From contig NZ_CP162495.1 of assembly GCF_040939125.1 (NCBI RefSeq), positions 3,968,001-4,032,000 on the forward strand: 64,000 bases of DNA, in the 5' to 3' direction. The notes beneath the pieces are model-generated. The model was not told where the DNA came from. It saw only the letters and a program-made list of their open reading frames with translations, and searched no databases. Below are positions 7,568-56,749 of this stretch, piece after piece. Made by a program: the position numbers and the translations under genes. This DNA is from Clostridium sp. BJN0013 (GTDB lineage Bacteria > Bacillota > Clostridia > Clostridiales > Clostridiaceae). The first letter of the stretch is position 1. Each line of letters starts with the position of its first letter.

Positions 7568-7718
7568 GTGTCAAGTAATTCTAAGATTCAGGTGGAGTTT
7601 ATTCATAAATAATGTCTTTTCCATCTGAACCTTACAATCACTTATCCAGGAGCGTAGCATTACTTATCTTCCGCTTTATAAAAGATTGGGATTTAGCTAA
7701 TTGCAACCTTCAGATAAA
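7568..7718 (-). repeat. Dispersed intergenic repeat, copy E
   Basis: About 151 bp in the spoVT-spoVB gap. Read on the minus strand it begins TTATCTGAAGGTTGCAATTA, has GGATAA at the end of its first domain, then AAGGTTCAGATGG and CACCTGAATCTTAGAATTAC. The outer stem is TTATCT/GGATAA with a T.G wobble at the closing pair. The arms of the second domain are AAGGTTCAG and CTGAATCTT. Confidence 0.8.
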
Positions 7719-7749
7719 AATAAAATGGCAGCTATGCTGCCACTATTAT

Positions 7750-8301
7750 CTATTGTTCCATTTGCTTTCCTAAAAAGGATGATGCAGTTTCAGCTAATTT
7801 AATTTCTACATCCCCAAATTTAGTTTCTTCTTTGGATACTATTATTACGGCGCCAATTGCATCTCCTCCTGCTATTATAGGACATATAACTTGTGCTGAA
7901 TACTTTCCTTCTATGTCTTCATCATCATATAATGGAATAATTTGATTTTCATCTCTACATGTTGATACTGTTCTTCTATCTTCTATAAGTTTTTCTAATT
8001 CAGGGCTTATTTTCTTTTCCATATATTCTTTTTTTGGTGTACCAGTTACGGATACTACACTGTCTTTATCACAAATCATAATTATATGACCTATCGTCTG
8101 CTGAAGTGATTCTGTATACCCTTTTGAAAAATCACTTAATTCTCCAATAGGAGAATATTTCTTCAGTATGACTCCTCCTTCTCTATCTGTAAATATCTCT
8201 AAAGGATCTCCTTCCCTTATTCTAAGAGTCCTTCTTATTTCTTTTGGTATAACAACTCTACCTAAATCGTCTATTCTTCTAACAATTCCTGTTGCTTTCA
8301 T
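7750..8301 (-). CDS. spoVT: Stage V sporulation protein T, AbrB-type regulator
   Basis: 183 aa. Residues 1-50 are the swapped-hairpin AbrB/SpoVT DNA-binding domain (MKATGIVRRIDDLGRVVIPKEIRRTLRI). Residues about 60-180 form a GAF-like domain. SpoVT is the late forespore regulator that tunes sigma-G genes. ATG at 8301 has AGGAGG upstream. Downstream comes spoVB, upstream a terminator and prsA. Full length and highly typical. Confidence 0.95.
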   Translation of the reverse strand: MKATGIVRRIDDLGRVVIPKEIRRTLRIREGDPLEIFTDREGGVILKKYSPIGELSDFSKGYTESLQQTIGHIIMICDKDSVVSVTGTPKKEYMEKKISPELEKLIEDRRTVSTCRDENQIIPLYDDEDIEGKYSAQVICPIIAGGDAIGAVIIVSKEETKFGDVEIKLAETASSFLGKQMEQ

Positions 8302-8395
8302 GCTTAATTGATTCCTCCTTAAAAATTATATATAACTTGTATTATTATTATCTTTCTAAACATGAAATTTTATACACAATTGTTATTTAAATTAG

Positions 8396-8453
8396 AAAAA
8401 ACCTTAAAAAAAACTGTAATAATATGCACTATAGTTCTTTTTTAAGGTTTTTT
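8396..8453. terminator. Terminator between prsA and spoVT
   Basis: AAAAAACCTTAAAAAAAACT and AGTTCTTTTTTAAGGTTTTT form a long stem with T-tracts on both strands. It lies between the prsA stop and the spoVT start and probably ends the prsA transcript. Confidence 0.7.
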
Positions 8454-8566
8454 ATTTTTATCTTAAAGCTATTATTTACAATACTTCCATTCTATTCAAA
8501 ATTAGAGATAAAAGCTGTCATGTCCCAGATAAGTTTTTATAAAGACTACTTGATATGTAAGCTCTG

Positions 8567-9592
8567 CTATATAATATTTTTCTCTTTTTTAGTTATTGTA
8601 GAAGCTTTTTTCCACTGCTGAATTTTTTCAGAAACTAGGCTGTTCTTTTTATCACTTTCTAGTTGTGTTTTTATTTGATCTTTAACTGCACTAAGAGCCT
8701 TAACTGGATATTCTTCCTTTTTTATACACTTTATTATATGATATCCAAAGCTACTTTTAACAGGTTCTGATATGGTACCTTCTTTTAATGCCAGAGCTCC
8801 TGCCATAAAATCAGCATCAAAACCTGAATCATTATAATTTACATCTCCTAAATCGCCGCCATTATCTTTAGTAGCTGCATCCTGTGATACTTCCTTTGCA
8901 ACTTTTGCAAAATCTTCTCCATCATCTAATCTCTTTTTTACTTTCTTAGCCTCATCTTCAGTTTTTACCAGTATGTGGGCTAAGTGCATTTTATTAGGTT
9001 GTTCTGTGAATTTACTTTTATTGGAATTATAATAGTCTTCTATTTCTTTATCTGTTATTTTTATATTTTTTGCAATACTTTCAGTTACATTTTCCAGTGT
9101 CTGCTGAGTTCTCAATTGGGACAAAAACATAGTTTTAAAGGATTCTTCAGTAAATCCCTGTGCCTTTAATGCAGTATTAAATTGTTCTGCATCATCATTA
9201 AAATTCTGCTTCTTAAGCTGTGCAATTTGAGTCTCCATATCAGATTTAAGTTTAGTCTCATCCGGTAAAAGTTTCAATTCTTTAGCTTTTTGTGCAATTA
9301 CCTTATTTGTAATTAAATCATCAAGTATCTGCTCTTTTTGAGTCTTTACAGTGTTAACTGCATCTTCATTTTCTTTATAGTTTTCCCCGTATTGCTGCTT
9401 AACTTGGCTTATTAATTGCATCGTATTTGGATCCTTATCTAAATCACTTCTTGTTATCTTCTCTCCATTAACCTCTGCCACCGTACTATTAGCTATGGCT
9501 TCTGGTGTTTTTTCTATCATATTACATCCAGCCACTGAAAATATAAATACTGTTATAAATGCAGTAACTGCCAATCTTCTTATATTTTTCAC
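8567..9592 (-). CDS. prsA: PrsA-like foldase lipoprotein (parvulin peptidyl-prolyl isomerase)
   Basis: 341 aa, start GTG at 9592 with GGGGGAA upstream. N-terminal signal ends in the lipobox VAGC (Cys 23), so the mature protein is lipid-anchored outside the membrane. Residues 40-190 form a SurA/PrsA chaperone region with long helices. The parvulin domain lies at about 198-295 (NKMHLAHILVKTEDEAKKV, GGDLGDV, FGYHIIKC). It assists folding of exported proteins. It lies between mfd and spoVT as in related clostridia; the C-terminal tail is highly charged. Confidence 0.9.
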   Translation of the reverse strand: MKNIRRLAVTAFITVFIFSVAGCNMIEKTPEAIANSTVAEVNGEKITRSDLDKDPNTMQLISQVKQQYGENYKENEDAVNTVKTQKEQILDDLITNKVIAQKAKELKLLPDETKLKSDMETQIAQLKKQNFNDDAEQFNTALKAQGFTEESFKTMFLSQLRTQQTLENVTESIAKNIKITDKEIEDYYNSNKSKFTEQPNKMHLAHILVKTEDEAKKVKKRLDDGEDFAKVAKEVSQDAATKDNGGDLGDVNYNDSGFDADFMAGALALKEGTISEPVKSSFGYHIIKCIKKEEYPVKALSAVKDQIKTQLESDKKNSLVSEKIQQWKKASTITKKEKNII

Positions 9593-9667
9593 AGTTTATT
9601 CCCCCACTTTCTTCACATTTTACAAAATACAAATTTATTTTAACATAAAAGCATTTTTACTACAAAA

Positions 9668-12600
9668 CTATTTTTGTTCATATATTTGTATCATATATTT
9701 AACAATTTCCTTAATATTGCTCAAAAGATTTTCTCTCTTTACATCTTTTAATGTATATCCAAAACTAAGCTTTTTATTCATTTTTAAAACTATTTTACCA
9801 AAATAAGTTTTAATTAATTCTTTTAATACATTTTTATCTATTCTATCTTCATTTTGAAAAGTAAAAATCACTTCATTTTTTGATTCCTTTATAGATTCTA
9901 TACCAAGTTCCTTACTTATGCTTCTTATATAGGCTATATCCATCAAATTATATACTGATGGTGGTATATCATAGAATCTATCTTCTAATTCCTCTTTTAT
10001 ATCCAACATGTCTTCATAGGAACTTATAGCTGCTATTTTTTTATATACTTCTATTTTTTGAACTTCATTTTCTATATAATTATCCGGTATATATGCATCC
10101 ACTTTTAATTCTACTGTGGTTTCTACCGGTTCTTTGTCTATCTCACCCTTTATTAATTTTATAGAATCTTCTAACATTCTACAATATAAATCATATCCTA
10201 TAGCTGCCATATGTCCATGTTGAGAGGAGCCCATCATATTACCTGCTCCCCTTATCTCTAGATCTTTTAATGCTATTTTAAATCCAGAACCCAATTCAGT
10301 AAATTCTTTAATAACCTTAAGTCTCTTTTCTGCCACTTCTTTGAGAACCTTATTCTTACGATAACTTAAATAACAATAAGCTATTCTATTAGTTCTTCCC
10401 ACTCTTCCTCTTAATTGATATAACTGAGATAGTCCCATTTTATCCGCATCATATATTATCATGGTATTTACATTTTGTATATCCATGCCAGTTTCTATTA
10501 TAGTAGTAGATACTAAAATATCATACTTATTTTGCATGAAATCCATTATTATTCCCTCAAGTTCTCTCTCTTGCATTTGGCCATGAGCCACTGCCACTTT
10601 ACCTTCTGGAATTAACTTGGCTATATAAGATGCCATTTCTTTTATATTTTCCACTCTGTTATATACAAAGTAAACCTGTCCTCCTCTACTTAATTCTCTT
10701 AATACAGCATCCCTGATTAGCTGATCATTATATTCCACTACATAAGTTTGTATAGGATATCTTTCATCTGGTGGTGTTTCTATAACACTTATATCCCTAA
10801 CTCCTACAAGGGACATATGCAGCGTTCTAGGTATAGGTGTAGCACTTAAAGTTAATACATCTACATTCTTTCTTATCTGCTTAATTTTTTCCTTATGACT
10901 AACTCCAAACCTTTGTTCTTCATCTATAATAAGAAGCCCCAGGTCTTTAAATTGTACATCTTTTTGAAGTATTCTATGAGTTCCAATAAGTATATCCACA
11001 TCTCCTATTTTAACAGCTTTTATAGTAACCTTTTGTTGTGCGGCAGTTTTAAATCTACTTATCATGTCTATTTTTACAGGGAAATCAGAAAATCTTTGAA
11101 TAAAATTATTATAATGTTGTTGTGCCAATATTGTAGTTGGAACTAAGAAAGCCACTTGCTTGCCATCCATCACCGCTTTAAAAGCAGCCCTTACTGCAAC
11201 TTCCGTTTTACCATAACCTACATCTCCACAAAGCAATCTATCCATTACTTTATCTGATTCCATATCTCTCTTTATATCCTGTATAGTTGATAACTGATCC
11301 GGAGTTTCTTCATAGGGAAATTCATCCTCAAATTGTTTCTGCCATACAGTATCTTTTGAATATTTATATCCTTTCAAAGTAGACCTGATTGCATATAATT
11401 TTATCAAATCTTCGGCCATCTCTTCTATTGACTTCTTTACCTTTTTTTTAACCTTACTCCATTCTGAGCTTCCTAGTTTATTTATCTTTGGACTTTTTCC
11501 CTCTGAACCTATATACTTTTGTACCATATCAAGCTGTTCTACCGGTACATATAATTTATCCTCACATTCATATACAAGTTCTAGATAATCCTTTTTATGT
11601 CCCTGAAGTTCTAGCTGTTTTATACCTTTATATATTCCTATACCATGATTTACATGAACTACAAAATCTCCTGTTTTTAATTCTGTAAAACTTTTAATCT
11701 TACTTGTTCCTTTTCTATTAGTTTTCCTTATACTTTTTCTTTTAGCTTTTCCGAAAACCTCTTTATCGGAAATAACACTTATTTTAAGTTTAGAATACTC
11801 AAATCCTTTTAATTGATTCCCAAAAGTTATAACTACTTCACCAGGCTTAATTTCATTTACCATATCCTTATAACTACTTTCAATACCATTATCTCTTAAG
11901 GTATCCACTAACCTTTCCCCTCTTGCTCTAGTACCAGACAAAATTAAAATTTTAAAGTTTTTAGATTTTTTATGTTTTATTTCTTCAATAAGTAAATCTA
12001 ATTTACCTTGATAATTATTCAAAGTTATCTGGACAAAATTCACTATTAGTTTTGGTGAAAAGGTTTTAGTAGATTTAGCAATAGCATCTAATATGATACT
12101 TTCTCTGTGATTAAATTTATCGATTAACTCAGATCTATCAACTAACATTTTACTTTGTCCTGGTAATACATTGCCTCTTTCTAGAAAACTTTTATAATTC
12201 TCGTGAAACTCAAAATATACACTATCTAACTTTCCACTACATCTTTTTATATCATCTACAATTATAAAATAATCTTTCACATAATCTAAAAAAGAAGACA
12301 TATGTTCATAAAAATAAGGTAAAAAGCTATCAATACTCTCAAATGTCCACGTTTCTTGAAAAGTTTCTAGATTTTTGTTTGTTATTGTTCTTATCTTTTC
12401 CAGTGCTTCATTGCTTTTATTCTTTTTTAGTTTTTCTACTATTATTGCTAAGTCCTCTTTTATTTTGCTTTTTCCTATTTCAACTCGCTCTCTATCAAAT
12501 ATAATCTCCTTTGCAGCAAATATCTCTATACCATTTATTTTCTCAATACTTCTTTGAGATTCTAAATTAAAATTTCTAATAGATTCTACCTCATCTCCGA

Positions 12601-13189
12601 ATAATTCAACTCTATAGGGTTCTGGAGAAATAGGAGAATATATATCCATTATACCCCCTCTTATAGAAAATTGTCCTTTTCCATCTACCATTTCGGTTCT
12701 CTCATACCCACATTGTATTAACTTTTCACTAATATTTTTAAAATCTACTTTATCTCCCACAGATATATTGAATATATAATTTTTATATAATTCCACAGGC
12801 ATATATACAGAAGCTAATGATTCCACACAAGTTATTATGATTTTTTTACCTGGATTTAACATCTCTCTTATTACCTTTAATCTTTCCCATCTTAAATCTC
12901 CAGATATAGCATCTATATTATAGAACACTACTTCTTTAGTAGGGAAATAATATACTTGTGGTAAATAAAAACACAAATCTTCATATAACTTTCTAGCCTC
13001 TACATCACTATGAGTAATAACTAAAAAAGGCTTATCCTGCTCATTATATACCCCATATATTAAATAACTTCTAGAGGATTCCGAAAGTCCAAATACTGCT
13101 ATAGGAAACTTCTTTCTGTCTATCCCAGTCATAATATCTTTAAATTCACTGCTTTTTCTAATAGGTTCCATAAGTCCATCTAGTCTCAT
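9668..13189 (-). CDS. mfd: Transcription-repair coupling factor
   Basis: 1173 aa from ATG at 13189, preferred over upstream in-frame starts because GGTGG precedes it and the length then matches the family. Order: UvrB-like domains (1-350), CarD/RNA-polymerase-binding domain (LKTGDFVVHVNHGIGIYKG), helicase with Walker A GDVGYGKTEV, DEEQRFGV box and motif VI QLRGRVGR, then the C-terminal TRCF domain. Mfd moves stalled RNA polymerase off DNA lesions and recruits UvrA. Follows pth, the conserved order. Confidence 0.97.
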   Translation of the reverse strand: MRLDGLMEPIRKSSEFKDIMTGIDRKKFPIAVFGLSESSRSYLIYGVYNEQDKPFLVITHSDVEARKLYEDLCFYLPQVYYFPTKEVVFYNIDAISGDLRWERLKVIREMLNPGKKIIITCVESLASVYMPVELYKNYIFNISVGDKVDFKNISEKLIQCGYERTEMVDGKGQFSIRGGIMDIYSPISPEPYRVELFGDEVESIRNFNLESQRSIEKINGIEIFAAKEIIFDRERVEIGKSKIKEDLAIIVEKLKKNKSNEALEKIRTITNKNLETFQETWTFESIDSFLPYFYEHMSSFLDYVKDYFIIVDDIKRCSGKLDSVYFEFHENYKSFLERGNVLPGQSKMLVDRSELIDKFNHRESIILDAIAKSTKTFSPKLIVNFVQITLNNYQGKLDLLIEEIKHKKSKNFKILILSGTRARGERLVDTLRDNGIESSYKDMVNEIKPGEVVITFGNQLKGFEYSKLKISVISDKEVFGKAKRKSIRKTNRKGTSKIKSFTELKTGDFVVHVNHGIGIYKGIKQLELQGHKKDYLELVYECEDKLYVPVEQLDMVQKYIGSEGKSPKINKLGSSEWSKVKKKVKKSIEEMAEDLIKLYAIRSTLKGYKYSKDTVWQKQFEDEFPYEETPDQLSTIQDIKRDMESDKVMDRLLCGDVGYGKTEVAVRAAFKAVMDGKQVAFLVPTTILAQQHYNNFIQRFSDFPVKIDMISRFKTAAQQKVTIKAVKIGDVDILIGTHRILQKDVQFKDLGLLIIDEEQRFGVSHKEKIKQIRKNVDVLTLSATPIPRTLHMSLVGVRDISVIETPPDERYPIQTYVVEYNDQLIRDAVLRELSRGGQVYFVYNRVENIKEMASYIAKLIPEGKVAVAHGQMQERELEGIIMDFMQNKYDILVSTTIIETGMDIQNVNTMIIYDADKMGLSQLYQLRGRVGRTNRIAYCYLSYRKNKVLKEVAEKRLKVIKEFTELGSGFKIALKDLEIRGAGNMMGSSQHGHMAAIGYDLYCRMLEDSIKLIKGEIDKEPVETTVELKVDAYIPDNYIENEVQKIEVYKKIAAISSYEDMLDIKEELEDRFYDIPPSVYNLMDIAYIRSISKELGIESIKESKNEVIFTFQNEDRIDKNVLKELIKTYFGKIVLKMNKKLSFGYTLKDVKRENLLSNIKEIVKYMIQIYEQK

Positions 13190-13326
13190 TTTAACAACCA
13201 CCCTATAAAATTTATTCATAATTAAAATAATCTTTCTCATAATAACAAATAAAATCAAACGCACAATAACCGTTAGTTTCTTCAATATTAAAGAAACTAA
13301 ACGGTTTAAAGCAATATTATAAAATT

Positions 13327-13890
13327 TTATAGCTTAAATCCATTAAATTTATTCATAGCTACTTCTATGCCAAAATTCACCATACAATTTAACGCTTCTA
13401 CACTAGTTTCTAAAACCTTTTCTATACTAATTCTGTCCTCTTCAGAAAACTTTCCAAGAACATAGGATACAAGATCTACAGTAGGATGTCCAATACCTAT
13501 TTTTATTCTCGGAAATACATATGTTCCTAGATTTAATATTATATTCTTTATCCCATTATGTCCTCCAGCACTTCCATGAGCCCTTATTCTAAATCTTCCA
13601 ATATCTATATCTATATCATCATATATAATTATTATATGGTCATTTTCAATTTTATAAAAATTTACAGCTTCTCTTACACTCTCCCCGCTTAAATTCATAT
13701 AAGTATTAGGTTTCAATAATATAACTTTATTTTGTCCTATAAATCCTTCTCCACAATTTCCTTTAAATTTTTCCCTATTTAAGGCAATATTATACTTCTT
13801 GCTTACTAAATCTATAAAATCAAATCCTATATTATGTCTCGTATGGTGATATTTAACTCCTATATTTCCTAACCCTACTATTAAAAACAT
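13327..13890 (-). CDS. pth: Peptidyl-tRNA hydrolase
   Basis: 187 aa. [20 protein letters not shown] carries the catalytic His 19; the family usually has GLGNPG, so Pro is replaced by Ile here. Further motifs are [15 protein letters not shown] and [12 protein letters not shown], with the catalytic Asp in [12 protein letters not shown]. Pth frees tRNA from prematurely released peptidyl-tRNA and is essential. It is followed by mfd (137-bp gap). Confidence 0.95.
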
Positions 13891-13960
13891 GTTCTTACTC
13901 CAATCTTAGCTCCAAATTAAAATTACCATCTCAATAATATATTATACTAAAAAACACAAA

Positions 13961-13993
13961 TAATAAAGAGACTTACACCAGTCTCTTTATTAT
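13961..13993 (-). terminator. Terminator overlapping the htrA stop
   Basis: AATAAAGAGAC and GTCTCTTTATT form an 11-bp stem with an 8-base loop, followed by T-rich sequence on the minus strand. The arm includes the last codons of htrA. Confidence 0.75.
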
Positions 13994-15177
13994 TTACTTT
14001 CTTTATTTTCAGAAAGAACTATTTCTGTTTCTATGGTCTTACCATTTCTCCATATTTTCCCTAGGACCTTGTCTCCTACCTTATGTCCTTCTAGTACTTC
14101 CTTTACATCAGATAAACTCCTTACCTTTTTGCCATCTATTTCTATCAATATGTCCGTAGGTTTTATACCAGAAGCTGCAGCACCACTATTTTTTTCCACC
14201 TGCTGTATATAAACACCCTGAATCTTATCATTCTGTGATGTCACACTTTCACCATATATACCTAAATAAGGCTTTGAAACTTCCCCGTAACTCATAAGTG
14301 ACTTTATTATATTTTTTGCATCATTTATATTTATTGCAAAACTTATACCCTCTACATTGGAATCAGATCCCATCTTTAAACTGTTAATGCCTATAACATA
14401 ACCTTTTATATTACAAAGAGCGCCGCCACTATTTCCAGGATTTGTAGCTGCATCTGTTTGAATAACTTTGTATACAGTCCCGTTATACTCTATTTTTCTA
14501 TTTAATGCACTTATTATGCCTGCAGTAACACTTGGAAATTCCTGACCTAAAGAATTTCCTATGGCAATTACAATATCTCCTACTTTCATCGTTGAAGAAT
14601 CTCCGAATTTAACCACGGGAAGATTTTTGGCTTCTACCTTTATTACAGCTAAATCAGCCTGCTGATCAACTCCCAATATAGAAGCATCCAGAATCTTTCC
14701 ACTTGAAAGTCGCACTGTAACCTTATCTGCTCCTTCTATTACATGATAATTAGTTGCTATATATCCATTGGAATCAATTATTATACCAGAGCCACTTCCT
14801 AAATCCTGTAACCCAAAATATCCTTCTGCTTTATTGCTTATACCAACTACGGATAAACCTACCGTTTGAGCTACCTTCGATATAGAATTTGCATATATAT
14901 CCTCGGATGTATCTTCTTGTTTTTTAGTATCTCCATTGGATTCAACCAACAATTGATTATTAGGTGTATATACTTTAGTATTTTCCTTTTTATTTACTAT
15001 ATATGCTCCAGATATGCCTCCCGAAACAGCTGCCACCAATATAAAACAAAACAGTTTAATCAATGCTCTTGCAGTTGACCGCCTTTTCATATTTATAAAT
15101 TTTATTTTTCCACTCTCTGCATCTACTTTTTCCCAGTAAACGTCTTTTATGTCATCATATCTGTTGTTATCATCCAT
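13990..15177 (-). CDS. htrA: Membrane-anchored HtrA/DegP serine protease
   Basis: 395 aa from ATG at 15177 (GAGG eight bases upstream). A short cytoplasmic N-terminus is followed by one membrane segment at about residues 38-58. The trypsin-like protease domain has the complete triad: His 145 (NYHVIEG), Asp 175 (ADLAVIK) and Ser 250 (GNSGGAL). A C-terminal PDZ domain (about 295-390) ends the protein. It degrades or refolds damaged exported proteins. A two-component pair lies directly upstream on the same strand, an arrangement like Bacillus htrA control by CssRS, but that link is inference. Confidence 0.93.
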   Translation of the reverse strand: MDDNNRYDDIKDVYWEKVDAESGKIKFINMKRRSTARALIKLFCFILVAAVSGGISGAYIVNKKENTKVYTPNNQLLVESNGDTKKQEDTSEDIYANSISKVAQTVGLSVVGISNKAEGYFGLQDLGSGSGIIIDSNGYIATNYHVIEGADKVTVRLSSGKILDASILGVDQQADLAVIKVEAKNLPVVKFGDSSTMKVGDIVIAIGNSLGQEFPSVTAGIISALNRKIEYNGTVYKVIQTDAATNPGNSGGALCNIKGYVIGINSLKMGSDSNVEGISFAININDAKNIIKSLMSYGEVSKPYLGIYGESVTSQNDKIQGVYIQQVEKNSGAAASGIKPTDILIEIDGKKVRSLSDVKEVLEGHKVGDKVLGKIWRNGKTIETEIVLSENKESK

Positions 15178-15260
15178 TAAATACACCTCATAATCTCTAA
15201 AATTTAGAGTTATTATAATAAAAAATTTTTACACAAATATGAACGGAATGTAATAATTTC

Positions 15261-17363: not shown

Positions 17364-17400
17364 TTTATTCCCCTCCTAAAATTGTAAACACATACTTATA

Positions 17401-17539
17401 TTTATCCGAAGGCTGCAATTAGGCTAATACCCTCTTGAAGTCGGAGGATAAGCACTGCTGCGCCCTTTATAAGTTCTTCTAGAGTTCAATTAGAGAAAAT
17501 TATGAGCAATTCCATCTAAACCTCTAAATTACTTGATAC
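17401..17539 (+). repeat. Dispersed intergenic repeat, copy A
   Basis: 139 bp in the 440-bp gap between the response regulator and prs. It starts TTTATCCGAAGGCTGCAATT, has an inner CCTC/GAGG stem and ends AAACCTCTAAATTACTTGAT. Outer pairing is partly lost (TTTATAA in place of GGATAA). Past the copy, 17540-17761 is AT-rich with no gene. Confidence 0.75.
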
Positions 17540-17761
17540 TATAAGTTACATGGTTTTTACCCCTATATATAATTTAAAATCAAATATTACCATATAATTA
17601 TACTTAAACGATTATTCCTATATTAAATCTATCATATATTTTAGGGTAAATAATAATGTATCTTGAAAAGTTACAAATAAGTTACAAATATTTATCTCAT
17701 AAGATTTAAATGAAGAAAAACATTCTTTATTGTCAAACTTTACTTAAACCTTAAAATCACT

Positions 17762-17802
17762 GATATAAAGGCATGTGGGAATAAGCCACATGCCTTTATA
17801 TC
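17762..17802 (-). terminator. Terminator after prs
   Basis: A perfect 17-bp stem, GATATAAAGGCATGTGG with CCACATGCCTTTATATC, 7-base loop, directly after the prs stop. Confidence 0.9.
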
Positions 17803-17803
17803 A

Positions 17804-18763: not shown

Positions 18764-18786
18764 TATGTAAAGCCCTCCTAAAATTT

Positions 18787-23677: not shown

Positions 23678-23826
23678 TTTATTCCAAGGCTACCCTTTTG
23701 ATAATCTTCTGCTTCTTTAAAGTAGGAGATAAGTATTATCATAACCTGAATAAGTTCTTATGAGGTTCAGATGGAAAAAAGTATTCCTTATCGGCAAAAT
23801 TCACCTAAACCTAAAAATCAATTAAT
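23678..23826 (+). repeat. Dispersed intergenic repeat, copy B
   Basis: About 149 bp starting in the T-tract of the terminator. The outer stem reads TTATTC/GAATAA where most copies have TTATCC/GGATAA, a paired change. The inner stem is CTTCTGCTT/AAGTAGGAG. The second domain has GAGGTTCAGATGG and CACCTAAACCT. It ends 105 bp before the hydrogenase-like gene. Confidence 0.8.
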
Positions 23827-29555: not shown

Positions 29556-29708
29556 TTTATCCGAACGCGGCAATTAGCTAATACTCCCATCTTCTTCAAA
29601 GTGGGAGATAAGCACGGATAACGTGCCTGGATAAGTTCTTCTAAGGTTCAGATAGAGAAAAGCATTTTTCATAAGCAAACTCCACCTGAACCTTAGAATC
29701 ACTTGATT
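29556..29708 (+). repeat. Dispersed intergenic repeat, copy C
   Basis: 153 bp, the best-preserved copy. Outer stem TTATCC/GGATAA, inner stem CTCCCA/TGGGAG, a small GCACG/CGTGC hairpin, then a second domain closed by AAGGTTCAG and CTGAACCTT, ending AGAATCACTTGATT. It ends 27 bp upstream of the next start codon in sense orientation, so it is probably in that gene's leader or promoter. Confidence 0.85.
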
Positions 29709-33684: not shown

Positions 33685-33834
33685 TTTATCCGAAGGTAGC
33701 AATTAGCCAACACCCTCATCTTTTTCAAAGTGGGAAATGAACACTGCTGAAAACCTGGATAAGTTCTTCTAAGGTTCAGATGAAAAAAACATTCCTTACG
33801 ATCAAACTTCACCTGAACCTAACAATCACTTCAT
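33685..33834 (+). repeat. Dispersed intergenic repeat, copy D
   Basis: 150 bp directly upstream of the H-NOX receptor gene, antisense to it. Outer stem TTATCC/GGATAA is intact; the second domain has AAGGTTCAGATG and CACCTGAACCTAACAATCAC. The rest of the gap to 34045 holds one terminator and AT-rich sequence. Confidence 0.82.
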
Positions 33835-40482: not shown

Positions 40483-40531
40483 AATTTACAAATAAATAAT
40501 TTTAACACACCCTTCATATTTTTAAATTTAT

Positions 40532-48801: not shown

Positions 48802-48841
48802 TCCAAATTATTTAAAAAGGAGAAAGGAATACTTATAATAT

Positions 48842-50662
48842 ATGTGGAATAAAAAATTCATATCAATAAGTTTAATTTTAATAACTTTACTTTTTACATT
48901 AATGTACTTTAATAGCCCCTTAAGAAATAATAAAAATTACCCCATAGTAGCTGGTTCTTTTATACAATTGGATTTAACCCAAAATTGGAATTCAGATAAG
49001 TGGGAAAAAGAATTGACCTATCTTAAGGAAAATAAAATGGAATATCTGGTAATAACAAATGTTTCACAAACAGAAGGGGATATTACTAAAACATGTTATA
49101 AAAGTAAAAATGAAAACTTTCAAAAACTATATGGCAATGTAGATCCTGTAGACTTATGTCTAAAGAATGCTGAAAAACTAAATATTAAAGTCTTTATAGA
49201 GACAAATTTTAATAGTCAGTGGTGGCAAATATCAGGAAATGATTCCTTATGGCTAAATTCTCAAATGGAAAGAGCTAATCTTATAGCCGATGAACTATAT
49301 GAAAATTATCATTCTAAATATCCCGATGCATTTTATGGATGGTATTTTCCCTATGAAGTGGACAATGCTAAGTTCAATAAATCTAGTGATTTTGACACTC
49401 TAGCCAATGCCCTTAACATTCATATAAATTATCTTAATACAAACCAGAAACGCTTGCCAATTTTACTATCACCATTTATGAATTCTTCTGTAGGGAGTGC
49501 AAAAGAATATTCTTCAAACTGGGAATATTTATTCTCAAAAACTAATTTTAAAAGTGGAGATATATTTTGTCCCCAAGATTCTATAGGAAGTGGCAGATTA
49601 AAGCTAGATGAAGTCAATTCCTGGTATACTGCCCTTAGAAAGGCGGTAAATAAAAAGCCTGGAATGTTATTCTGGGCTAATACAGAAACCTTTGACTATG
49701 TTAATAATTCTACTGTACCACTAGATAGATTTTTAAAACAACTTAAACTAGAACAACCTACTGTAGATAATATACTCTGTTTTTCATACAGCCATTACTA
49801 CAGTCCAAACAACATATCCAGTGGATTTAATGAAGCATATTCCTATTATGTAAAAAAAGGAAAACTTCCTAATAAAAAATTAGATATACCCCAAAATCTT
49901 AATGTAGCTGTCATAGAAAAAAATAAATTTAAAATAACCTGGTCAGCTCCAAAAAAAACTGATAATATTTGTGGATATGAAATTTATAGAAATAATATTT
50001 TAATTTCAAGAATTATGGTCCAAAGAAAATATGGCGGTGATCCTAAAGTATTTTCCAATACTATTGTAGATATGCCTATACTGAAAGAAGATGTAAAATC
50101 CTATACCTATAAGGTAAGAGCTTTAGACTTTTCAGGTAATCTATCAAAACCATCTAATTTGGTAACAGTTAATGTGGATTCTATCAAAAAGCTGCCTAAT
50201 ATAGTTTCTAAAAATTGTACCTATACTCTTTCCCCTATGCCCCATGAAAATTATAATGACCCCAAACTTACCAAAATTACAGATGGAAAATATTCTTCTA
50301 TAAACTCGGTAAAAGACAAAAGTTTTATAGGGTGGTACAATGATGCCTTAAATATAAATATAGATTTAGGGAAGGTAATGCCTGTACAACAATTTATGGT
50401 AAGCTATCTAAGAGATCCTATTCCTTGGGCTGAGCTGCCTGATAGAGCTTCTATTTCCATATCACAAGATGGTATAAATTTTACTCCAGTAGGACTTATA
50501 AGAATTCCCTCTATCCCCTTTTCTGATAGATATGGTTCTAAATATCCCTTGTACCTTACACTGGATACCCCTGTAAATGCCAGATATGTAAAGCTATTTT
50601 CTGTTACTAAGGCTAATCACTATACTTTTATAGATGAATTTGAAGTAAGAAATACTCAATAG
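48842..50662 (+). CDS. Membrane-anchored DUF4434 glycosidase-like protein with Fn3 and F5/8-type C domains
   Basis: 606 aa. One membrane helix (about 7-23) anchors the rest outside. Residues 36-345 match the DUF4434 TIM-barrel fold (FIQLDLTQNWNSDKWEKEL, WYFPYEVDN). Residues about 350-455 form a fibronectin III domain (NLNVAVIEKNKFKITWSAP). Residues about 462-604 form a discoidin-like carbohydrate-binding domain (NINIDLGKVMPVQQFMVSYL). Likely acts on or binds a surface polysaccharide. It lies alone between sbcC and ogt; substrate unknown. Confidence 0.8.
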   Translation: MWNKKFISISLILITLLFTLMYFNSPLRNNKNYPIVAGSFIQLDLTQNWNSDKWEKELTYLKENKMEYLVITNVSQTEGDITKTCYKSKNENFQKLYGNVDPVDLCLKNAEKLNIKVFIETNFNSQWWQISGNDSLWLNSQMERANLIADELYENYHSKYPDAFYGWYFPYEVDNAKFNKSSDFDTLANALNIHINYLNTNQKRLPILLSPFMNSSVGSAKEYSSNWEYLFSKTNFKSGDIFCPQDSIGSGRLKLDEVNSWYTALRKAVNKKPGMLFWANTETFDYVNNSTVPLDRFLKQLKLEQPTVDNILCFSYSHYYSPNNISSGFNEAYSYYVKKGKLPNKKLDIPQNLNVAVIEKNKFKITWSAPKKTDNICGYEIYRNNILISRIMVQRKYGGDPKVFSNTIVDMPILKEDVKSYTYKVRALDFSGNLSKPSNLVTVNVDSIKKLPNIVSKNCTYTLSPMPHENYNDPKLTKITDGKYSSINSVKDKSFIGWYNDALNINIDLGKVMPVQQFMVSYLRDPIPWAELPDRASISISQDGINFTPVGLIRIPSIPFSDRYGSKYPLYLTLDTPVNARYVKLFSVTKANHYTFIDEFEVRNTQ

Positions 50663-50692
50663 AGATTTCTATAATAGAAAGAAGGTATTAAT

Positions 50693-51166
50693 ATGAAAAT
50701 TTCACACACCTGCTATTATCCTTCTCCTATTGGAACTATCAAAATAGATAGTGATAATATAGGAATAACTTCTATACTATTTTTAGACTATGAACCAAAA
50801 ATCATAAATAATAATGAATGCTGTACGTATATAAAAAATTGTATAACTCAGCTGGAGGAATATTTTAAAGGCACTAGAAAAACTTTCTCAATTAAATTGC
50901 ATATCTCTGACACTCCCTTTAGAGAAAAAGTGTGGAAGGAACTTCTAAAGATCCCATATGGCCGTACCTGTTCTTACTATGATATAGCTAACTCAATAAA
51001 TAATAAAAATGCTGTTAGAGCCGTAGGGGGTGCAAACCACCATAATAAAATAAGCATAATTATACCCTGCCATAGAGTTATAGGTAAAGATGGAAGTTTA
51101 ACTGGATATGGCGGTGGACTATGGCGAAAAAAATGGCTTTTAGAACATGAACAGAAATATAAATGA
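50693..51166 (+). CDS. ogt: Methylated-DNA-protein-cysteine methyltransferase
   Basis: 157 aa. Active-site Cys 126 in IIIPCHRVIG, helix-turn-helix GRTCSYYDIANSI and FREKVWKELLKIPYG. Removes O6-alkyl groups from guanine by suicide transfer. AGAAGG upstream of ATG. Short N-terminal domain, typical of the Ogt form in Firmicutes. Confidence 0.93.
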   Translation: MKISHTCYYPSPIGTIKIDSDNIGITSILFLDYEPKIINNNECCTYIKNCITQLEEYFKGTRKTFSIKLHISDTPFREKVWKELLKIPYGRTCSYYDIANSINNKNAVRAVGGANHHNKISIIIPCHRVIGKDGSLTGYGGGLWRKKWLLEHEQKYK

Positions 51167-51269
51167 TACCAACATATTTTTTTATAATCATTGACAATAA
51201 ATTTCATAAATATTATAATTTTAAAGTAAAGATTTAAATTATGATAAATTTTAACGTATAGAACTAAAA

Positions 51270-51528
51270 ACGATGATGAGAAGAGTAGGTATAGAAACTT
51301 TCTAAAGCGAATTGGTTATGGTGGGAGTCCAATGTAAGCCTATATTAAAGAACATCTCAAAGTTTCTAACTGAAACCTTTACGGAAGTAGGCTTAGAGGT
51401 ATTCAATGCCTTAAAATTGAAGGATAAAATATTTAGATTTTATCCTAAGAGTTGGTCATGTTTATGACAAATTGGGTGGTACCGCGAACTAAGTCTTTCG
51501 TCCCTTTAGGGATGAAAGACTTTTATTA
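51270..51528 (+). promoter_or_regulatory. T-box riboswitch specific for tRNA-Asn
   Basis: The leader holds a stem I whose strand TGAGA pairs with TCTCA; the specifier loop has AAC (51351-51353), the Asn codon. The T-box AAATTGGGTGGTACCGCGAA lies at 51470-51489. A strong terminator follows: AAGTCTTTCGTCCC / GGGATGAAAGACTT and T-tract (51490-51525). Uncharged tRNA-Asn should favour the antiterminator and so asnS transcription. Confidence 0.93.
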
Positions 51529-51559
51529 ATAACATAATAAATTTACGGAGGAAAATACC

Positions 51560-52951
51560 ATGGAAAAAGCATTAGTAAAATCTCTTTACAGAGAAACTGA
51601 AAAATTTATAAATAAAGATATCAACATCTCAGGCTGGATAAGAACTATAAGAGATTCTAAATCCTTTGCTTTTATAGAATTGAACGATGGATCATTTTTT
51701 AAGAATGTTCAGATAGTTTTAGATGATAAAATAGAAAATTTTAAAGAAATAATAAGATTACCTATCAGTTCATCATTATCTGTGAAGGGTACTTTAATTT
51801 TGACTCCAAATACAAAACAACCTTTCGAAATTAAAGCTAAAAAAATATCTTTAGAAGGAACTTCATCCTCAGACTACCCTCTTCAAAAGAAAAGACATAC
51901 TCTTGAGTATTTAAGAACCATAGCTCACTTAAGACCAAGAAGTAATACCTTTTCCGCTGTATTTAGAGTTCGTTCCATCGCAGCCTATGCCGTACATAAA
52001 TTCTTCCAGGAAAAAGATTTTGTATATGTAAATACTCCTATAATCACAGGCAGTGACTGCGAAGGTGCTGGCGAAATGTTTAGAATAACTACAATGGATT
52101 TAAATAATATACCTAAAAAAGAAGATAAAACTACAGACTTTTCTAAAGATTTCTTTGGTAAAGAAACAAATCTAACTGTAAGTGGCCAGCTATCTGCTGA
52201 AACTATGGCTCTTGCTTTTAGAAACGTATATACCTTTGGTCCTACTTTCAGGGCAGAAGATTCAAATACTTCAAGACATGCAGCTGAATTTTGGATGATA
52301 GAACCTGAAATGGCTTTTGCAGAACTGAAAGATTATATGGATATTGCAGAAGAACTTGTAAAATATATAATAAATTATGTACTTGAAAAAGCTCCTGAAG
52401 AAATGGCATTTTTCAATTCATTCATTGATAAATCTCTCTTTGACAGATTAAACAACGTAACTAATTCAGAATTTGGAAGAATAACTTACACTGAAGCTGT
52501 AGATATTTTACAAAAAAGCGGTGCATCTTTTCAATATCCAGTAGAATGGGGTATTGACCTTCAAACAGAACATGAGCGATATTTAACAGAAAAAGTATTT
52601 AAAAAGCCTATATTTGTTACAGACTATCCAAAAGCTATAAAAGCCTTTTATATGAGAGAAAATGAAGACGGAAAAACAGTTGCCGCTGCAGACCTTTTAG
52701 TACCAGGGGTAGGAGAAATAGTAGGGGGAAGCCAAAGAGAAGAAAGACTATCTATTCTTGAAAATAGAATAACAGAATTCGGTCTTAATAAAGAAGATTA
52801 TTGGTGGTACCTGGAACTTAGAAAATATGGTGAAACCAAACACTCTGGTTTTGGATTAGGTTTCGAAAGAATAATTATGTATATAACAGGTATGTCTAAT
52901 ATAAGAGATGTAATTCCATTTCCTAGGACACCAGGTTCCGCCGAATTTTAA
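51560..52951 (+). CDS. asnS: Asparaginyl-tRNA synthetase
   Basis: 463 aa. OB-fold anticodon domain (1-110, [21 protein letters not shown]) followed by a class II core (motif 2 [21 protein letters not shown], motif 3 [10 protein letters not shown]). The QLSAETMAL pattern and length mark AsnRS, not AspRS. ATG with GGAGGA. Its leader is an Asn T-box. Confidence 0.97.
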
Positions 52952-52975
52952 AATATTAATTGGAGGAGAAAAGCT

Positions 52976-53221
52976 TTGGAAAAAAGAATTGCTGTAGTTG
53001 GAATAGTTGTGGAAGATCTTGAGAATGCTTCAATTGTAAATAGTATACTTCATTCTTTCTCAGATATTATAGTGGGAAGATTAGGTATTCCCTACAAGGA
53101 AAAAAATATTTCAGTTATATCAATAATAGTAGATGGAACTTCTGACGAAATAAGTTCTATGACTGGAAAATTAGGCAGAATAAATGGAGTAACTGTAAAA
53201 ACAGCTATTACCAAAAAATAA
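52976..53221 (+). CDS. TM1266-family iron-only hydrogenase system regulator (putative)
   Basis: 81 aa, start TTG at 52976 with TGGAGGAGA upstream. Sequence EKRIAVVGIVVEDLENASIV, SDIIVGRLGIP and the ending GRINGVTVKTAITKK match the small ACT-like TM1266 family, which is annotated as a regulator of [FeFe] hydrogenase systems from gene context. It is 25 bp after asnS and probably co-transcribed. The divergent hydrogenase of this window lies 28 kb away. Confidence 0.75.
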   Translation: MEKRIAVVGIVVEDLENASIVNSILHSFSDIIVGRLGIPYKEKNISVISIIVDGTSDEISSMTGKLGRINGVTVKTAITKK

Positions 53222-53267
53222 CTTTCCTAAAAATACACAATTATCAAATAACATACTTTTATTTAAT

Positions 53268-53305
53268 AAGACTTCTATGATTTCATATAAAATTATAGAA
53301 GCCTT
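53268..53305 (+). terminator. Terminator after the asnS transcript
   Basis: AAGACTTCTAT and ATAGAAGCCTT arms (one mismatch), followed by ACTTTTATAT. The rest of the gap to 53531 is AT-rich with no gene seen. Confidence 0.6.
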
Positions 53306-53531
53306 ACTTTTATATACATATAAGGTATATTTGATCATAGAAAAAACAGTCCTATATTTTTACTACAATTTACAGTAATCGTTATAAATCAATTTATTTT
53401 AAAAATTTAAAATAAATTTTTACTGTAACCGGTTGCACATTGTTTTAATATATATCAATTTTAGCTAAAATATTATTAAGTGAAAAAATTTCTTTACAAT
53501 AATTATATCAATATGGAAAGGCGGTCTGTTT

Positions 53532-54011
53532 ATGGATCTTGTAAAATTATTTGAATTGCAAGAAAACTTAGATGAAAGAACAAAAAAAAATATTCCTATG
53601 AAAAAAAAAGATTTACTTTCACAAAAGACTCTTGCACTTCAAGTAAAAATAGCTGAACTGGCTAATGAAACTCAATGTTTCAAATTCTGGACTAATGATG
53701 CACCTACCAATAAGGATTTAATTTTAAAAAGTTATGTAGATTGCTTATACTTCATATTGACTTTAGGACTTGAAAAAGGGTTTACAGATATTAAAGTAAA
53801 CATAAAAGTTAATGAAGATATTATTACATCACAATTTTTAAACATATATATTGATATAAATGATTTTATAGTCTGTTCTTCCAAGGATCACTATATCACT
53901 CTATTCGAAGATTTTATAAGTTTAGGGGAAAAATTAGGATTGTCTATAAATGAAATAGAAACTGCTTACTGTTATAATAATTTTCTCCATAAAGAAAAAT
54001 TCAAATGTTAG
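53532..54011 (+). CDS. Dimeric all-alpha dUTPase-like pyrophosphohydrolase
   Basis: 159 aa. Starts MDLVKLFELQENLDERTKKN; has AELANETQCFKFW and SYVDCLYFILTLGLEKGF, the helix pair of the dimeric dUTPase (MazG-related) family with its acidic metal residues. These enzymes hydrolyse dUTP to dUMP. AAAGGCGG ribosome site. A very strong terminator follows directly. Confidence 0.85.
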   Translation: MDLVKLFELQENLDERTKKNIPMKKKDLLSQKTLALQVKIAELANETQCFKFWTNDAPTNKDLILKSYVDCLYFILTLGLEKGFTDIKVNIKVNEDIITSQFLNIYIDINDFIVCSSKDHYITLFEDFISLGEKLGLSINEIETAYCYNNFLHKEKFKC

Positions 54012-54054
54012 GAGACCATTCTCTGTATGTTATTTAATACAGAGAATGGTCTCT
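54012..54054 (+). terminator. Terminator after the dUTPase-like gene
   Basis: GAGACCATTCTCTGTAT and ATACAGAGAATGGTCTC: perfect 17-bp stem, 8-base loop. Confidence 0.85.
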
Positions 54055-54151
54055 TCAACTAATCAATCCATATTTAAAACTTCATATTTATTTAATTTTA
54101 ATAATATATCATCTTCATGGTTAAACTAACCTTCAGGAAGGTGATATATTT

Positions 54152-54583
54152 ATGCTTGGTATATTATATGCAATAATATCAGGAGTCAGTATGAGTATAC
54201 AAGGTGTATTCAATACAAGACTCAGTGAAAAAATAGGACTATGGTTAACAAACGCAATAGTACAAGGCATTGGTTTCATAATAACCCTTATAATAGTTTT
54301 TATGATTAAGGATAAAAATTTATCAAATTTAAGTTGTTGTAGAAAGCTATATTTTCTAGGAGGAGCCTTAGGGGTGGTTATAATTTTTACTGTGATGCAG
54401 GGAATTAAACTTTTAGGGGTAACTCACTGTATTGCTATAATTCTAACAGCACAGCTTATAGCCGCAGCTGTAATTGACTTTTTCGGTTTATTCGATTCTC
54501 CCCAAATTAATTTTACCTTAAATAAAATAGTAGGCATTGCAGTAATGATAGTAGGTATTGTTATATTGAAATGGAAAGGATAA
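54152..54583 (+). CDS. Small DMT-superfamily membrane protein (DUF606/YdcZ type)
   Basis: 143 aa with about five membrane helices. GILYAIISGVSMSIQGVFN is the typical DUF606 start, and GGALGVVIIFTVMQGIKLLG the central motif. Members are half-size relatives of EamA drug/metabolite transporters and often pair. AAGGTGAT ribosome site. Substrate unknown. Confidence 0.82.
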   Translation: MLGILYAIISGVSMSIQGVFNTRLSEKIGLWLTNAIVQGIGFIITLIIVFMIKDKNLSNLSCCRKLYFLGGALGVVIIFTVMQGIKLLGVTHCIAIILTAQLIAAAVIDFFGLFDSPQINFTLNKIVGIAVMIVGIVILKWKG

Positions 54584-54682
54584 TTTATATTTTATAATTA
54601 TATATTAATTATTACACTTAATATCACATATATTATTAAATAACATTATAATATTATTGTAATTAATTTTAAGGTGAAAAAT

Positions 54683-55882
54683 ATGTTTTCTATTAAAAAC
54701 AAATTAGAATCTAATTTAAAAATATCCTTAGATGAGGGACTATATAAAAATTACAGAGTAATAATAAAATGTACTTCCTTACCAGAGGCTATAGAAAAAA
54801 AAATAAAAACATATAATGGTACTATAATACATTCTATTTCAATGATAAACTGTATATGTGCCACATTAACTCCTCGTTCTATAAATAGGATAATTGAATT
54901 TCCTCAAGTAAGTTTTATAACAAATGATTATTTTGCTTTGCTTTGTGGCGAAAAAGGTGTTCTTGCTTCAAATGGAATAACATTTCAAGGAAGATATAAG
55001 CTTACAGGAAAAGATGTATGTATAGGAGTAATAGATTCAGGTACTTACCCACATTCAGATCTTTTAAATCCTAAAAATAAAATAAAAAAGTTTGTAGATT
55101 TGGTAGGTAATTATAAATATCCCTATGACGATAACGGTCATGGCACTTTTATAAGTGGAATTATATGCGGAAGTGGTATTCAATCTAAGGGTCTATACAG
55201 AGGCATTGCAGAGGGTAGTAGTATTTATTCTGTGAAAGCTTTTAATTCTATTGGGAAAGGTTATATATCTGATATTTTATTTTCACTTCAATTATTAATG
55301 CAAGAAAGTATTGATGAAAATATAAAAGTGATTTGTCTACCTTTCGAATTAGAAATAAATGATTATTTTATACTATCCTTATTTGAAAAATTTTTTGAAG
55401 AAGCTGTAAAATCAAATATAACTGTTGTAGTTCCCACAGGACATCAAGGCGATTCAGAGGGTAGTATGCGAGGTATAGCTACCTTAAAGAATTGTATAAC
55501 TGTAGCAGGCATAGACACAACCTCTAAAATTCAAAAACCGTATAAGTACTCTTCTTGTGGCCCTATTAACAAAATAGAAAAACCCAATCTGGCTGCCGCC
55601 TCTGTAAACATATGTTCTATAAATGCAAATACAAGTTATATTTCTGAAAGAAATGGAATGAAATTATATCCTAAAGTATTAGAAAAACCCTATACATGCT
55701 ATAGCGGAACTTCCTGTGCTGCCGCTTATATAAGTGGTGTCTGTTCTCTTATGTATGAAAATAATCCCGAACTTACATTTAAAGATTTAACCTCCCTTTT
55801 AAAAGTATGCTGTAATTCTTTAGATATGACAAAATATTGTCAGGGTTCTGGTATGCTGGATCTTGAGAAATTATTGCCATAA
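54683..55882 (+). CDS. Subtilisin-like serine protease (S8) with His in the oxyanion position
   Basis: 399 aa from ATG at 54683 (AAGGTG six bases before). No signal peptide is evident. Catalytic Asp 118 (VIDSGTYPHSD), His 153 (NGHGTFISGI) and Ser 344 (YSGTSCAAAYISG) are present. The position usually filled by the oxyanion Asn in AAGN reads VVPTGHQGD, with His 254. Residues 1-95 resemble a short propeptide-like region. Related to clostridial Csp/intracellular subtilases; may be cytosolic. Activity uncertain because of the Asn change. Confidence 0.85.
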   Translation: MFSIKNKLESNLKISLDEGLYKNYRVIIKCTSLPEAIEKKIKTYNGTIIHSISMINCICATLTPRSINRIIEFPQVSFITNDYFALLCGEKGVLASNGITFQGRYKLTGKDVCIGVIDSGTYPHSDLLNPKNKIKKFVDLVGNYKYPYDDNGHGTFISGIICGSGIQSKGLYRGIAEGSSIYSVKAFNSIGKGYISDILFSLQLLMQESIDENIKVICLPFELEINDYFILSLFEKFFEEAVKSNITVVVPTGHQGDSEGSMRGIATLKNCITVAGIDTTSKIQKPYKYSSCGPINKIEKPNLAAASVNICSINANTSYISERNGMKLYPKVLEKPYTCYSGTSCAAAYISGVCSLMYENNPELTFKDLTSLLKVCCNSLDMTKYCQGSGMLDLEKLLP

Positions 55883-55978
55883 ACAAACCTAAAATTTACA
55901 AACTATTTAAACCTTAGTTAAAGTATGCTATTATGAATATATACTTTAATTTAATAACTATTAAAAATTAAAATTTAT

Positions 55979-56050
55979 AAGGAGGTGTAAACTGTTATTT
56001 TAAAACAATTATAAAAAACAGTTTTTATAAGTTTTAATAACGGTGTTGCT
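55979..56050 (+). promoter_or_regulatory. Ferritin leader: strong Shine-Dalgarno then a long hairpin before the ATG
   Basis: AAGGAGGTG at 55979-55987 is 63 nt from the ATG. Between, 55994-56041 can form about 20 bp: GTTATT/AATAAC, AAAAC/GTTTT and TTATAAAAA/TTTTTATAA with small bulges. Folding would leave about 15 nt between the site and the ATG. A weak GGTG also lies five bases before the ATG. Confidence 0.55.
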
Positions 56051-56560
56051 ATGATAAGCGAAAGATTAACAAATTTTATAAACGATCAAATAAATTTTGA
56101 GTACTACTCTGCTAATATTTACTTAGCTATGCAAGCATATTTTGCAGGACAAAATCTAAACGGCTTTACAAATTTTTTTAAAGTTCAAATAGAAGAAGAA
56201 AATTTTCATGCTACAAAACTTTTCAATTATTTAAATCAAGTAGGCGCCAGGGTTATTATAAAAGGTTTCCCAGATCCTGAAAATAATTATGAATCACCTC
56301 TGGCAGCCTTCGAAGCAGCTTTAGCCCACGAACAAAAAGTTACACAAAGATTTAATAATTTAATGGAAATAGCCAGAGAAGATAAAGATTATGCTTCAAT
56401 AGGTTTTCTTCAATGGTTTATAGATGAGCAAGTTGAAGAAGAAGATACTTTTAATAATGCTATACAGGCATTAAAAAGAATAGGTGATAATCCTGCCGCA
56501 CTTTACTTATACGACCAGGAACTGGCAAATAGAACTTTTACTCCACCAACTACTGTATAA
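56051..56560 (+). CDS. ftnA: Ferritin
   Basis: 169 aa. ISERLTNFINDQINFEYYSANIYLAMQ, IEEENFHATKLFNYL and EQVEEEDTF contain the ferroxidase Glu/His ligands (Glu 17, Glu 50, His 53 and further Glu). Forms a 24-mer that stores iron and protects against oxygen. Expected family length. The leader has an unusual hairpin. A copy of the dispersed repeat begins three bases past the stop codon. Confidence 0.93.
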   Translation: MISERLTNFINDQINFEYYSANIYLAMQAYFAGQNLNGFTNFFKVQIEEENFHATKLFNYLNQVGARVIIKGFPDPENNYESPLAAFEAALAHEQKVTQRFNNLMEIAREDKDYASIGFLQWFIDEQVEEEDTFNNAIQALKRIGDNPAALYLYDQELANRTFTPPTTV

Positions 56561-56563
56561 TCC

Positions 56564-56749
56564 ATCAAGTGATTTTAAGGTTCAGGTGGAGTTTGCTTAT
56601 GAGAAATGCTTATCCCATCTGAACCTTATTAACAGTATTCTTAGTGTCTTTAGCACTTAGAATACGTTATCCTTTAGGGGAAGAACTTATCTAGGCGCGT
56701 ATCAGTGCTTATCTCCAACTTTGGATAAAATGGTAGCATTAGGATAAAA
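56564..56749 (-). repeat. Dispersed intergenic repeat, copy F, with a nested palindrome
   Basis: 186 bp, about 40 bp longer than other copies, antisense to ferritin. On the minus strand it reads TTATCCTAATGC..., TCCA/TGGA inner stem, GATAAGTTCTTC, then an inserted palindrome GTATTCTAAGTG / CACTAAGAATAC (56635-56665), then AAGGTTCAGATGGG and CACCTGAACCTT. Confidence 0.82.

Follow-up and report, generated by a model that had tools for sequence, protein, structure and literature searches.

Copies of the element in the window

The DNA studied here, referred to below as the window, is a 64-kb stretch of 64,000 nucleotides (nt) from Clostridium sp. BJN0013 (contig NZ_CP162495.1, positions 3,968,001 to 4,032,000), and several copies of one dispersed element are found between its genes. 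The copies form a single family that can be written as TTTAT|CC…CACTTGAT and are about 150 or 200 nt long. The repeat is probably a non-autonomous element of the IS200/IS605 type, comparable to the palindrome-associated transposable elements (PATEs), and it is apparently undescribed and widespread in the taxonomic family of its host. A first-pass annotation, made from the letters alone, had reported six copies with one two-domain plan and covarying stems, and had proposed either a mobile palindrome resembling a miniature inverted-repeat transposable element (MITE) or a structured RNA, the latter being favoured.

A covariance model (R1) was built from 35 copies of the host genome (G000; 4,101,691 bases, 4.10 Mb). 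The search with this model showed that the six copies are genuine, with ends within a few bases of the positions first given and with E-values from 1.1e-34 to 5.4e-12 over 220,853 bases. Those at 29556, 33685, 7570 and 17401 are part of the model's own alignment; the two outside it, at 23678 and 56564, scored 103.5 and 71.3 bits, respectively. The two-domain plan was borne out, since TTATCC/GGATAA closes the left domain, the right domain is a long near-perfect hairpin and the end lies near CACTTGAT. The TTATTC/GAATAA variant is also present, in the sequence of the copy at 23678.

The top match of the model is copy D (29556..29707, + strand, short type, 183.9 bits). It opens with TTTAT (29556..29560, +), the putative target pentamer and left cleavage site, and this is followed by a left-end hairpin, CTCCCA-T-CTT-loop-AAG-TGGGAG (29584..29607, +), which has an unpaired T and resembles IS605 left-end hairpins. 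The central strand GGATAAGT (29629..29636, +) can pair either with the left-end TTTATCC or with the right-end ACTTG, a pairing that may be functional. The long right-end hairpin (P3; 29639..29698, +) comes next, and TTGAT (29703..29707, +) is the right terminus and the presumed right cleavage site, beyond which conservation is absent.

Copy A (7570..7718, − strand, short type, 140.5 bits) has as neighbours a putative SpoVT gene and a spoVB-like gene whose spore_V_B match is below the cut-off; a SpoVT scan of the named genomes gave more distant relatives only. Copy B (17401..17537, +, 101.0 bits) is of the short type, internally shortened, and lies about 38 bp upstream of a response regulator ORF (open reading frame), and copy C (23678..23826, +, 103.5 bits), of the short type and degenerate, lies upstream of a [FeFe]-hydrogenase-like ORF. 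Copy D precedes an ORF first named YkvI, for which NCBIfam gives no match, and copy E (33685..33834, +, short type, 154.4 bits) precedes a methyl-accepting-protein-like ORF, initially taken for an H-NOX receptor. Copy F (56564..56748, −, 71.3 bits) adjoins a ferritin-like ORF and is of the long type, with an additional hairpin of about 50 nt between the two domains. Two relics that had been overlooked were also found: a degenerate element (8457..8554, +, 46.9 bits) and a lone right half (17695..17758, +, 38.4 bits, model positions 81-144). As had been claimed, the six copies are located between the listed ORFs, the exception being a 5-base overlap of the copy at 29556 with an ORF call that begins at a TTG within the element. 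Likewise, no ORF was seen in the 150-200 nt of the element.

Ends, target and empty sites

The boundaries were determined from 122 cmsearch rows, of which 105 were kept after dropping 17 partial or opposite-strand ones, 104 of them with full flanks. Over these 104 copies the ends are sharp: TTTAT opens the element, CACTTGAT closes it, and only a mild A/T enrichment is seen outside. Each base of TTTAT and TTGAT is conserved in 97-100% of the copies, except for the G of TTGAT (87%). The element is seated directly 3' of the T-rich pentamer TTTAT and, by eye, it has no terminal inverted repeats (TTTATCC... versus ...CACTTGAT).

Empty sites in relatives, which the first-pass annotation had proposed to look for, could be read letter by letter in nine cases: copies C, D and F, window position 40485, G000 positions 4049858, 4039490 and 3894119, and positions 3407812 and 3405507 of the relative G003. 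The least clear is copy C. One pentamer was present at each of the nine sites, with no target-site duplication. The pentamer of the empty site is exactly TTTAT in three of them (copy D, 4049858, and 3407812 in the relative G004). At G000 4049858 the empty site reads AAAT-TTTAT-GTCTTTCCC, identical to the left flank, the pentamer and the right flank of the filled site; here the left flank aligned in part only and the empty site was read directly from the stretch. At window position 40485 the opposite situation was found, the window having an empty TTTAC (40485..40489, +) where both G003 and G004 have a long-type copy.

In the 19.9 kb covered by the search both relatives align collinearly with the window at about 90% identity, and five of the six window copies are missing from them. 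Copy D has a precise empty site in G003 and G004, and copy F in G004. Copy C is absent in both genomes, and copy E is absent in both together with about 135 nt of flank. At the copy A site the relatives have, between TTTAT and ACATT, 8 nt resembling the two element ends, which may be a deletion scar. The remaining site, that of copy B, is occupied in G003 and G004 (L181 and L185) by a rearranged copy, in which an inverted copy comes after the left part of the element.

Eleven G000 copies located outside the window were compared with G003: five could be placed on both flanks, three sites being empty and two occupied, and six were unplaceable. Conversely, three of six G003 copies tested could be placed, two of them at the same occupied sites and one at a site with a 50-nt remnant in G000. 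A G003 stretch has three copies. The site of one is empty in both G000 and G004; the sites of the other two are occupied in G004, and G000 has an empty site for one of these and lacks the other along with part of its flank. Neither G000 nor G003 has a further G004 copy, whose insertion site is not clear. The last of these comparisons covered 18 sites, 10 of which had no counterpart in the stretches compared.

Abundance, distribution and length classes

In the host genome R1 matched all 150 candidates scored, out of 3287 first-look candidates, and since the window copies at 23678 and 56564 are outside those 150, the genome holds at least 152 copies. This covariance-model search, also proposed at the outset, gave matches in relatives as well. 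Within the genus the element was matched in 11 of 13 genomes at E<=0.001, two of the 11 having two matches only, and within the family in 71 of 206 genomes, belonging to 20 of 46 genera, at E<=1e-6 with 14 candidates scored per genome. A blastn search of plasmid and phage collections, which may leave out records very near the window's genome, yielded no element match, and no viral contig matched one exact right-end pattern. In agreement with the first-pass annotation, which knew no named family that fits, no Rfam family was matched over the six copies, either with gathering scores or with E<=1, and no paper naming the element was found among the best-ranked literature matches.

Twenty of 108 distinct G000 copies exceed 180 nt. 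This long type carries about 51 additional nt, themselves a hairpin, between TTCTTC and TAAGG. One insertion site holds the long type in G000 (L255:401-601) and the short type in G004 (L423:401-549), and beside the 51 nt both copies differ by one substitution and one single-base indel. This near-identity indicates a gain or loss of the extra hairpin at the site itself. The identity of G000 copies to their nearest neighbour has a median of 0.87, by which most of them look old, and a maximum of 0.97. Copies of G157 and G158 look more uniform by eye, these having been chosen from the best-scoring ones. A copy of G006 (L190:12752 onwards) has, by eye, a similar left domain, but its right hairpin is different and longer, with complementarity retained in the stem.

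Fold, covariation and the possibility of a host RNA

When all G000 column pairs at least 4 apart were ranked by corrected mutual information, the top three were 30-51 (TA/CG), 11-69 (CG/GC) and 103-116 (AT/TA). The first two belong to stems of the consensus fold (P2 and P1, respectively), and the third is in the variable tip of the right hairpin, unpaired in the consensus. Cells changed on both sides numbered 47 in P1 against 26.3 in shuffles and 40 in P2 against 24.7, values that none of 500 shuffles reached; in P3 they were 19 against 10.7, and 4 of 500 shuffles reached 19. These shuffles leave the relatedness between copies in place. P4 (76-80/145-149), the TAAGT/ACTTG pairing beside the right hairpin, hardly varies and has no covariation support. 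RNAalifold alone, on 35 copies, detected little covariation (a covariation term of -0.19 and both-side change in 3 of 16 pairs), so that the support comes from the larger copy set together with a structure that we specified. Stems also change in concert between genera (GGTTCAG/CTGAACC, GACTCAG/CTGAGTC, GCTTCAG/CTGAAGC; also CGC/GCG, GGC/GCC, GAC/GTC), in a comparison that recovered 8 of 12 copies from other genomes, the other four not being found. The covarying stems first noticed in six copies are therefore real, within the genome and between genera.

Such stems had been taken as a reason to favour RNA, and an RNA maintained by the host locus by locus, as a cis-regulator or a small RNA, would also agree with the strong consensus fold (-50.1 kcal/mol), with the position of several copies near start codons and with the scarcity of overlap with ORFs: when ORFs of at least 120 aa are considered, an overlap exceeding 40 nt was found for 2 of the 45 copies whose context was sufficient, and not for the other 43. 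However, this explanation is disfavoured, and we judge it very improbable. The 3263 cells of P1-P3 in 104 copies comprise 2739 Watson-Crick pairs, 199 G·T, 203 A·C and 122 others, unlike the acceptor stems of 32 tRNAs, where 20 G·T and 2 A·C were counted among 224 cells, a control biased towards pairs, since ARAGORN depends on pairing for tRNA detection. G·U should be tolerated in a fold maintained as RNA, and therefore the equality of both mismatches counts against a maintained RNA and points to decay of settled copies without RNA-folding constraint. Orientation relative to neighbouring ORFs is mixed, as first observed: the 37 copies with ORFs on both sides, counted on ORFs and not on annotated genes, were distributed as 14 ++, 11 --, 7 -+ and 5 +-. 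In addition, at the nine empty sites a relative lacks the copy and keeps both flanks, and Rfam gave no match.

The comparison of orthologous copies bears on the same question. In seven orthologous pairs of the close relatives G003 and G004, differences were found at 12.4% of stem sites and 8.8% of unpaired sites, that is, stems change at least as fast as loops, which counts against a host RNA. In the same pairs nine stem pairs changed on both sides, about four being expected, and six of them stayed Watson-Crick; this excess could reflect some constraint or a mutation mechanism, and template switching in hairpins is one possibility for such coordinated changes. In five of the seven shared sites the element differs more than the nearest 60-nt flanks (e.g., 77% versus 98% identity), and faster mutation, conversion or template switching in hairpins are possible causes. 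L183:17520 and L187:17465 are an example of such diverged orthologous copies. In view of the strong differences between some orthologous copies, replacement of copies at shared sites was also weighed: derived states common to the seven G003-G004 pairs point to common descent, which is clear for six and weak for L386/L393. Of ten pairs involving G000, three have clear shared derived states and seven do not rise above background, a result that favours neither descent nor replacement.

If the element folds as single-stranded DNA while it transposes, the covariation of the stems and the lack of a host-RNA signal would both be accounted for. Thus, of the two readings offered by the first-pass annotation, the mobile one is well supported by the sharp ends, the precise empty sites in relatives and the more than 150 copies, and the one based on RNA is disfavoured, A·C being as common as G·T in the stems. 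The element is not a classical MITE, however, as such a derivative of a DDE transposase would have terminal inverted repeats and a target duplication, neither of which was seen, and the left hairpin is IS605-like.

Relation to IS200/IS605 elements

A hairpin with an unpaired T is a mark of the IS200/IS605 family. The left hairpin of the element (CTCCCA-T-CTT...AAG-TGGGAG) was searched at 63 tnpA loci, in the 350 nt before the start for 56 of them and over the whole locus for 7 short ones; among the 56, L204 has a mis-set start because its contig begins early. Six of the 63 loci scored 30-37, the best of 3000 background windows being 28. L209, which is among these six, is itself a degenerate element copy. 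The remaining five belong to two types of IS605 left end, found in G002/G008 and G001; copies of one insertion sequence (IS) do not count as independent, and another two copies of the same IS (L191 and L214) score 23 only. Chance was rejected as the cause of the weak covariance-model matches (E 0.02-1) at the G002/G008 IS605 left ends, because the similarity exceeds background. Passages of two papers describe the IS200/IS605 family as inserting 3' of a tetra- or pentanucleotide, with no inverted repeats and no duplication (PMC7290912), and as carrying a small hairpin close to each end, next to guides (PMC6006769); in another source TTTAT is a listed target of IS605-type IStrons (PMC4227781). 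As to such guides, the element has the nearly invariant TAAGT/ACTTG pairing next to its right hairpin, and no canonical left guide was identified.

Several results weigh against an IS200/IS605 origin. The similarity of the left end spans about 30 nt only, and the right end had no match among the tnpA loci and IS605 right ends examined. The right hairpin has about 60 nt, against the 20-25 nt given for the family in the portion of PMC6006769 drawn on here. The complementary strand folds better as RNA (-64.5 kcal/mol), and consequently the fold data do not settle which strand folds. A replication-strand bias is at most weak, 86 of 150 copies being co-directional with replication (p = 0.09, terminus taken midway; p = 0.03-0.09 under other terminus positions, contig C1 starting at dnaA). 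The pentamer at six of the nine empty sites is one letter off TTTAT (TTTAC, TTCAT, TCTAT). Finally, at none of the 91 distinct loci scanned did a tnpA- or tnpB-bearing element share these ends (a 61-locus and a 38-locus scan, with at most 30 loci per search and covering part of all matches), and neither G004 (at least 150 copies) nor G006 (at least 110 copies) gave a Y1_Tnp match at E<=0.001.

Other candidates were also rejected. The IS605 elements of G002/G008, although similar in the left hairpin, end in TTTAAC...TTCAC. The host genome has nine IS200-like tnpA matches over positions 2-121, two of them with an internal stop, and the eight of these elements that were read have unrelated ends; the other Y1 loci scanned lack such ends too. 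A TnpB guide RNA (omega RNA) was discarded because, in the 30 of 43 matches scanned, the element occurs at tnpB loci only as separate insertions; the few tnpB 3' ends read differ from the element right end. As no resident IS with matching ends was found, we call the element IS200/IS605-type and do not assign it to a named IS.

The letters AT are common to TTTAT and TTGAT, so the exact breakpoint is ambiguous, which also counts against the assignment. It is this ambiguity that lets the empty sites fit, letter for letter, a Helitron-like element with ends TCC...CTTGA inserted between A and T and a hairpin near the 3' end. We give very little credit to such an origin, since conservation spans the full TTTAT and the left hairpin resembles IS605 left ends; to our knowledge, there is no bacterial Helitron with an A|T target.

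Mobilisation by a domesticated REP-associated tyrosine transposase (RAYT, TnpA_REP) instead of an IS605 TnpA, as for repetitive extragenic palindromic (REP) sequences and REPINs, was considered in view of the divergent Y1 proteins encoded by many element-bearing genomes. One of these matches NCBIfam REP_Tyr_transpos below the cut-off (67.3 of 80 bits), and in G005 a long-type copy overlaps the 3' end of a RAYT-like Y1 ORF (L199:2040-2227). However, a copy is present at only 1 of 38 Y1 loci scanned, and no divergent RAYT-like match is listed for the copy-rich G000, G003, G004 and G006, apart from a 55-residue fragment with stops in G000. Moreover, neither end has a GTAG tag, one GTAG being found inside on the complementary strand, and the element exceeds the size range of 21-65 nt that the cited part of PMC6006769 states for REPs. 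All this makes mobilisation by a RAYT improbable.

If the element is of the IS200/IS605 type, a Y1 HUH transposase supplied in trans would bind the two hairpins when the DNA is single-stranded during replication and would cut after TTTAT and after TTGAT. The excised strand would then be circularised and pasted after another TTTAT. The central strand GGATAAGT could help to position the cuts through its pairing with the left TTTATCC or the right ACTTG. Selection would act on the fold of mobile copies and settled copies would drift. A more speculative and rather unlikely extension is that the element is a one-guide relic: its single central GGATAAGT would pair in turn with TTTATCC at the left cut and ACTTG at the right cut, so that a gene-less 150-nt element could be cut and pasted by the Y1 enzymes of different IS and thereby persist family-wide after loss of its parent transposon.

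Other features of the window

A T-box leader (Rfam RF00230, 102.5 bits) was identified at 51264-51508 (+), upstream of a 463-aa ORF at 51560-52951. In addition, a block of three tRNAs is duplicated in tandem at 961-1501, the two copies being 98-100% identical.

Comparison with known systems

The element is a very common intergenic repeat of clostridia that could be mistaken for a regulatory RNA, and the comparison of A·C with G·T mismatches offers a simple test to distinguish folds under selection for mobility from those maintained as RNA. This structured element, which has no gene and no visible parent, also raises a testable question, namely which HUH enzyme recognises it and via which guide.

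Among known systems, PATEs are alike in consisting of IS200/IS605 ends only, with no transposase gene, according to the passages of PMC7290912 used here. They differ in that the PATE-like sequence cited there is a single ends-only copy of a resident IS605, whereas for this element no parent IS with the same ends was found among the loci scanned, and it has a conserved two-domain fold and is spread over 20 of the 46 genera in a single family. Group A IStrons, as described in the part of PMC4227781 cited, are inserted downstream of TTGAT, ATTAT or TTTAT and have subterminal palindromes; their 3' end is TCAG, whereas that of this element is TTGAT, and it contains neither an intron nor an ORF. The free-standing IS605 stem-loops of Borrelia plasmids are also dispersed without transposase, and some of their stems, which drift towards G-U pairing, are considered to persist as RNA (PMC2775950); in contrast, this element has no wobble preference, and it is the whole bounded element, and not single hairpins, that is mobile. 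Finally, REP and REPIN sequences with RAYT are likewise high-copy intergenic palindromes tied to Y1 HUH enzymes in the excerpts of PMC6006769 and PMC3733652 used, but this element has about 150-200 nt, no GTAG tag at its ends and linkage to RAYT in 1 of 38 loci.

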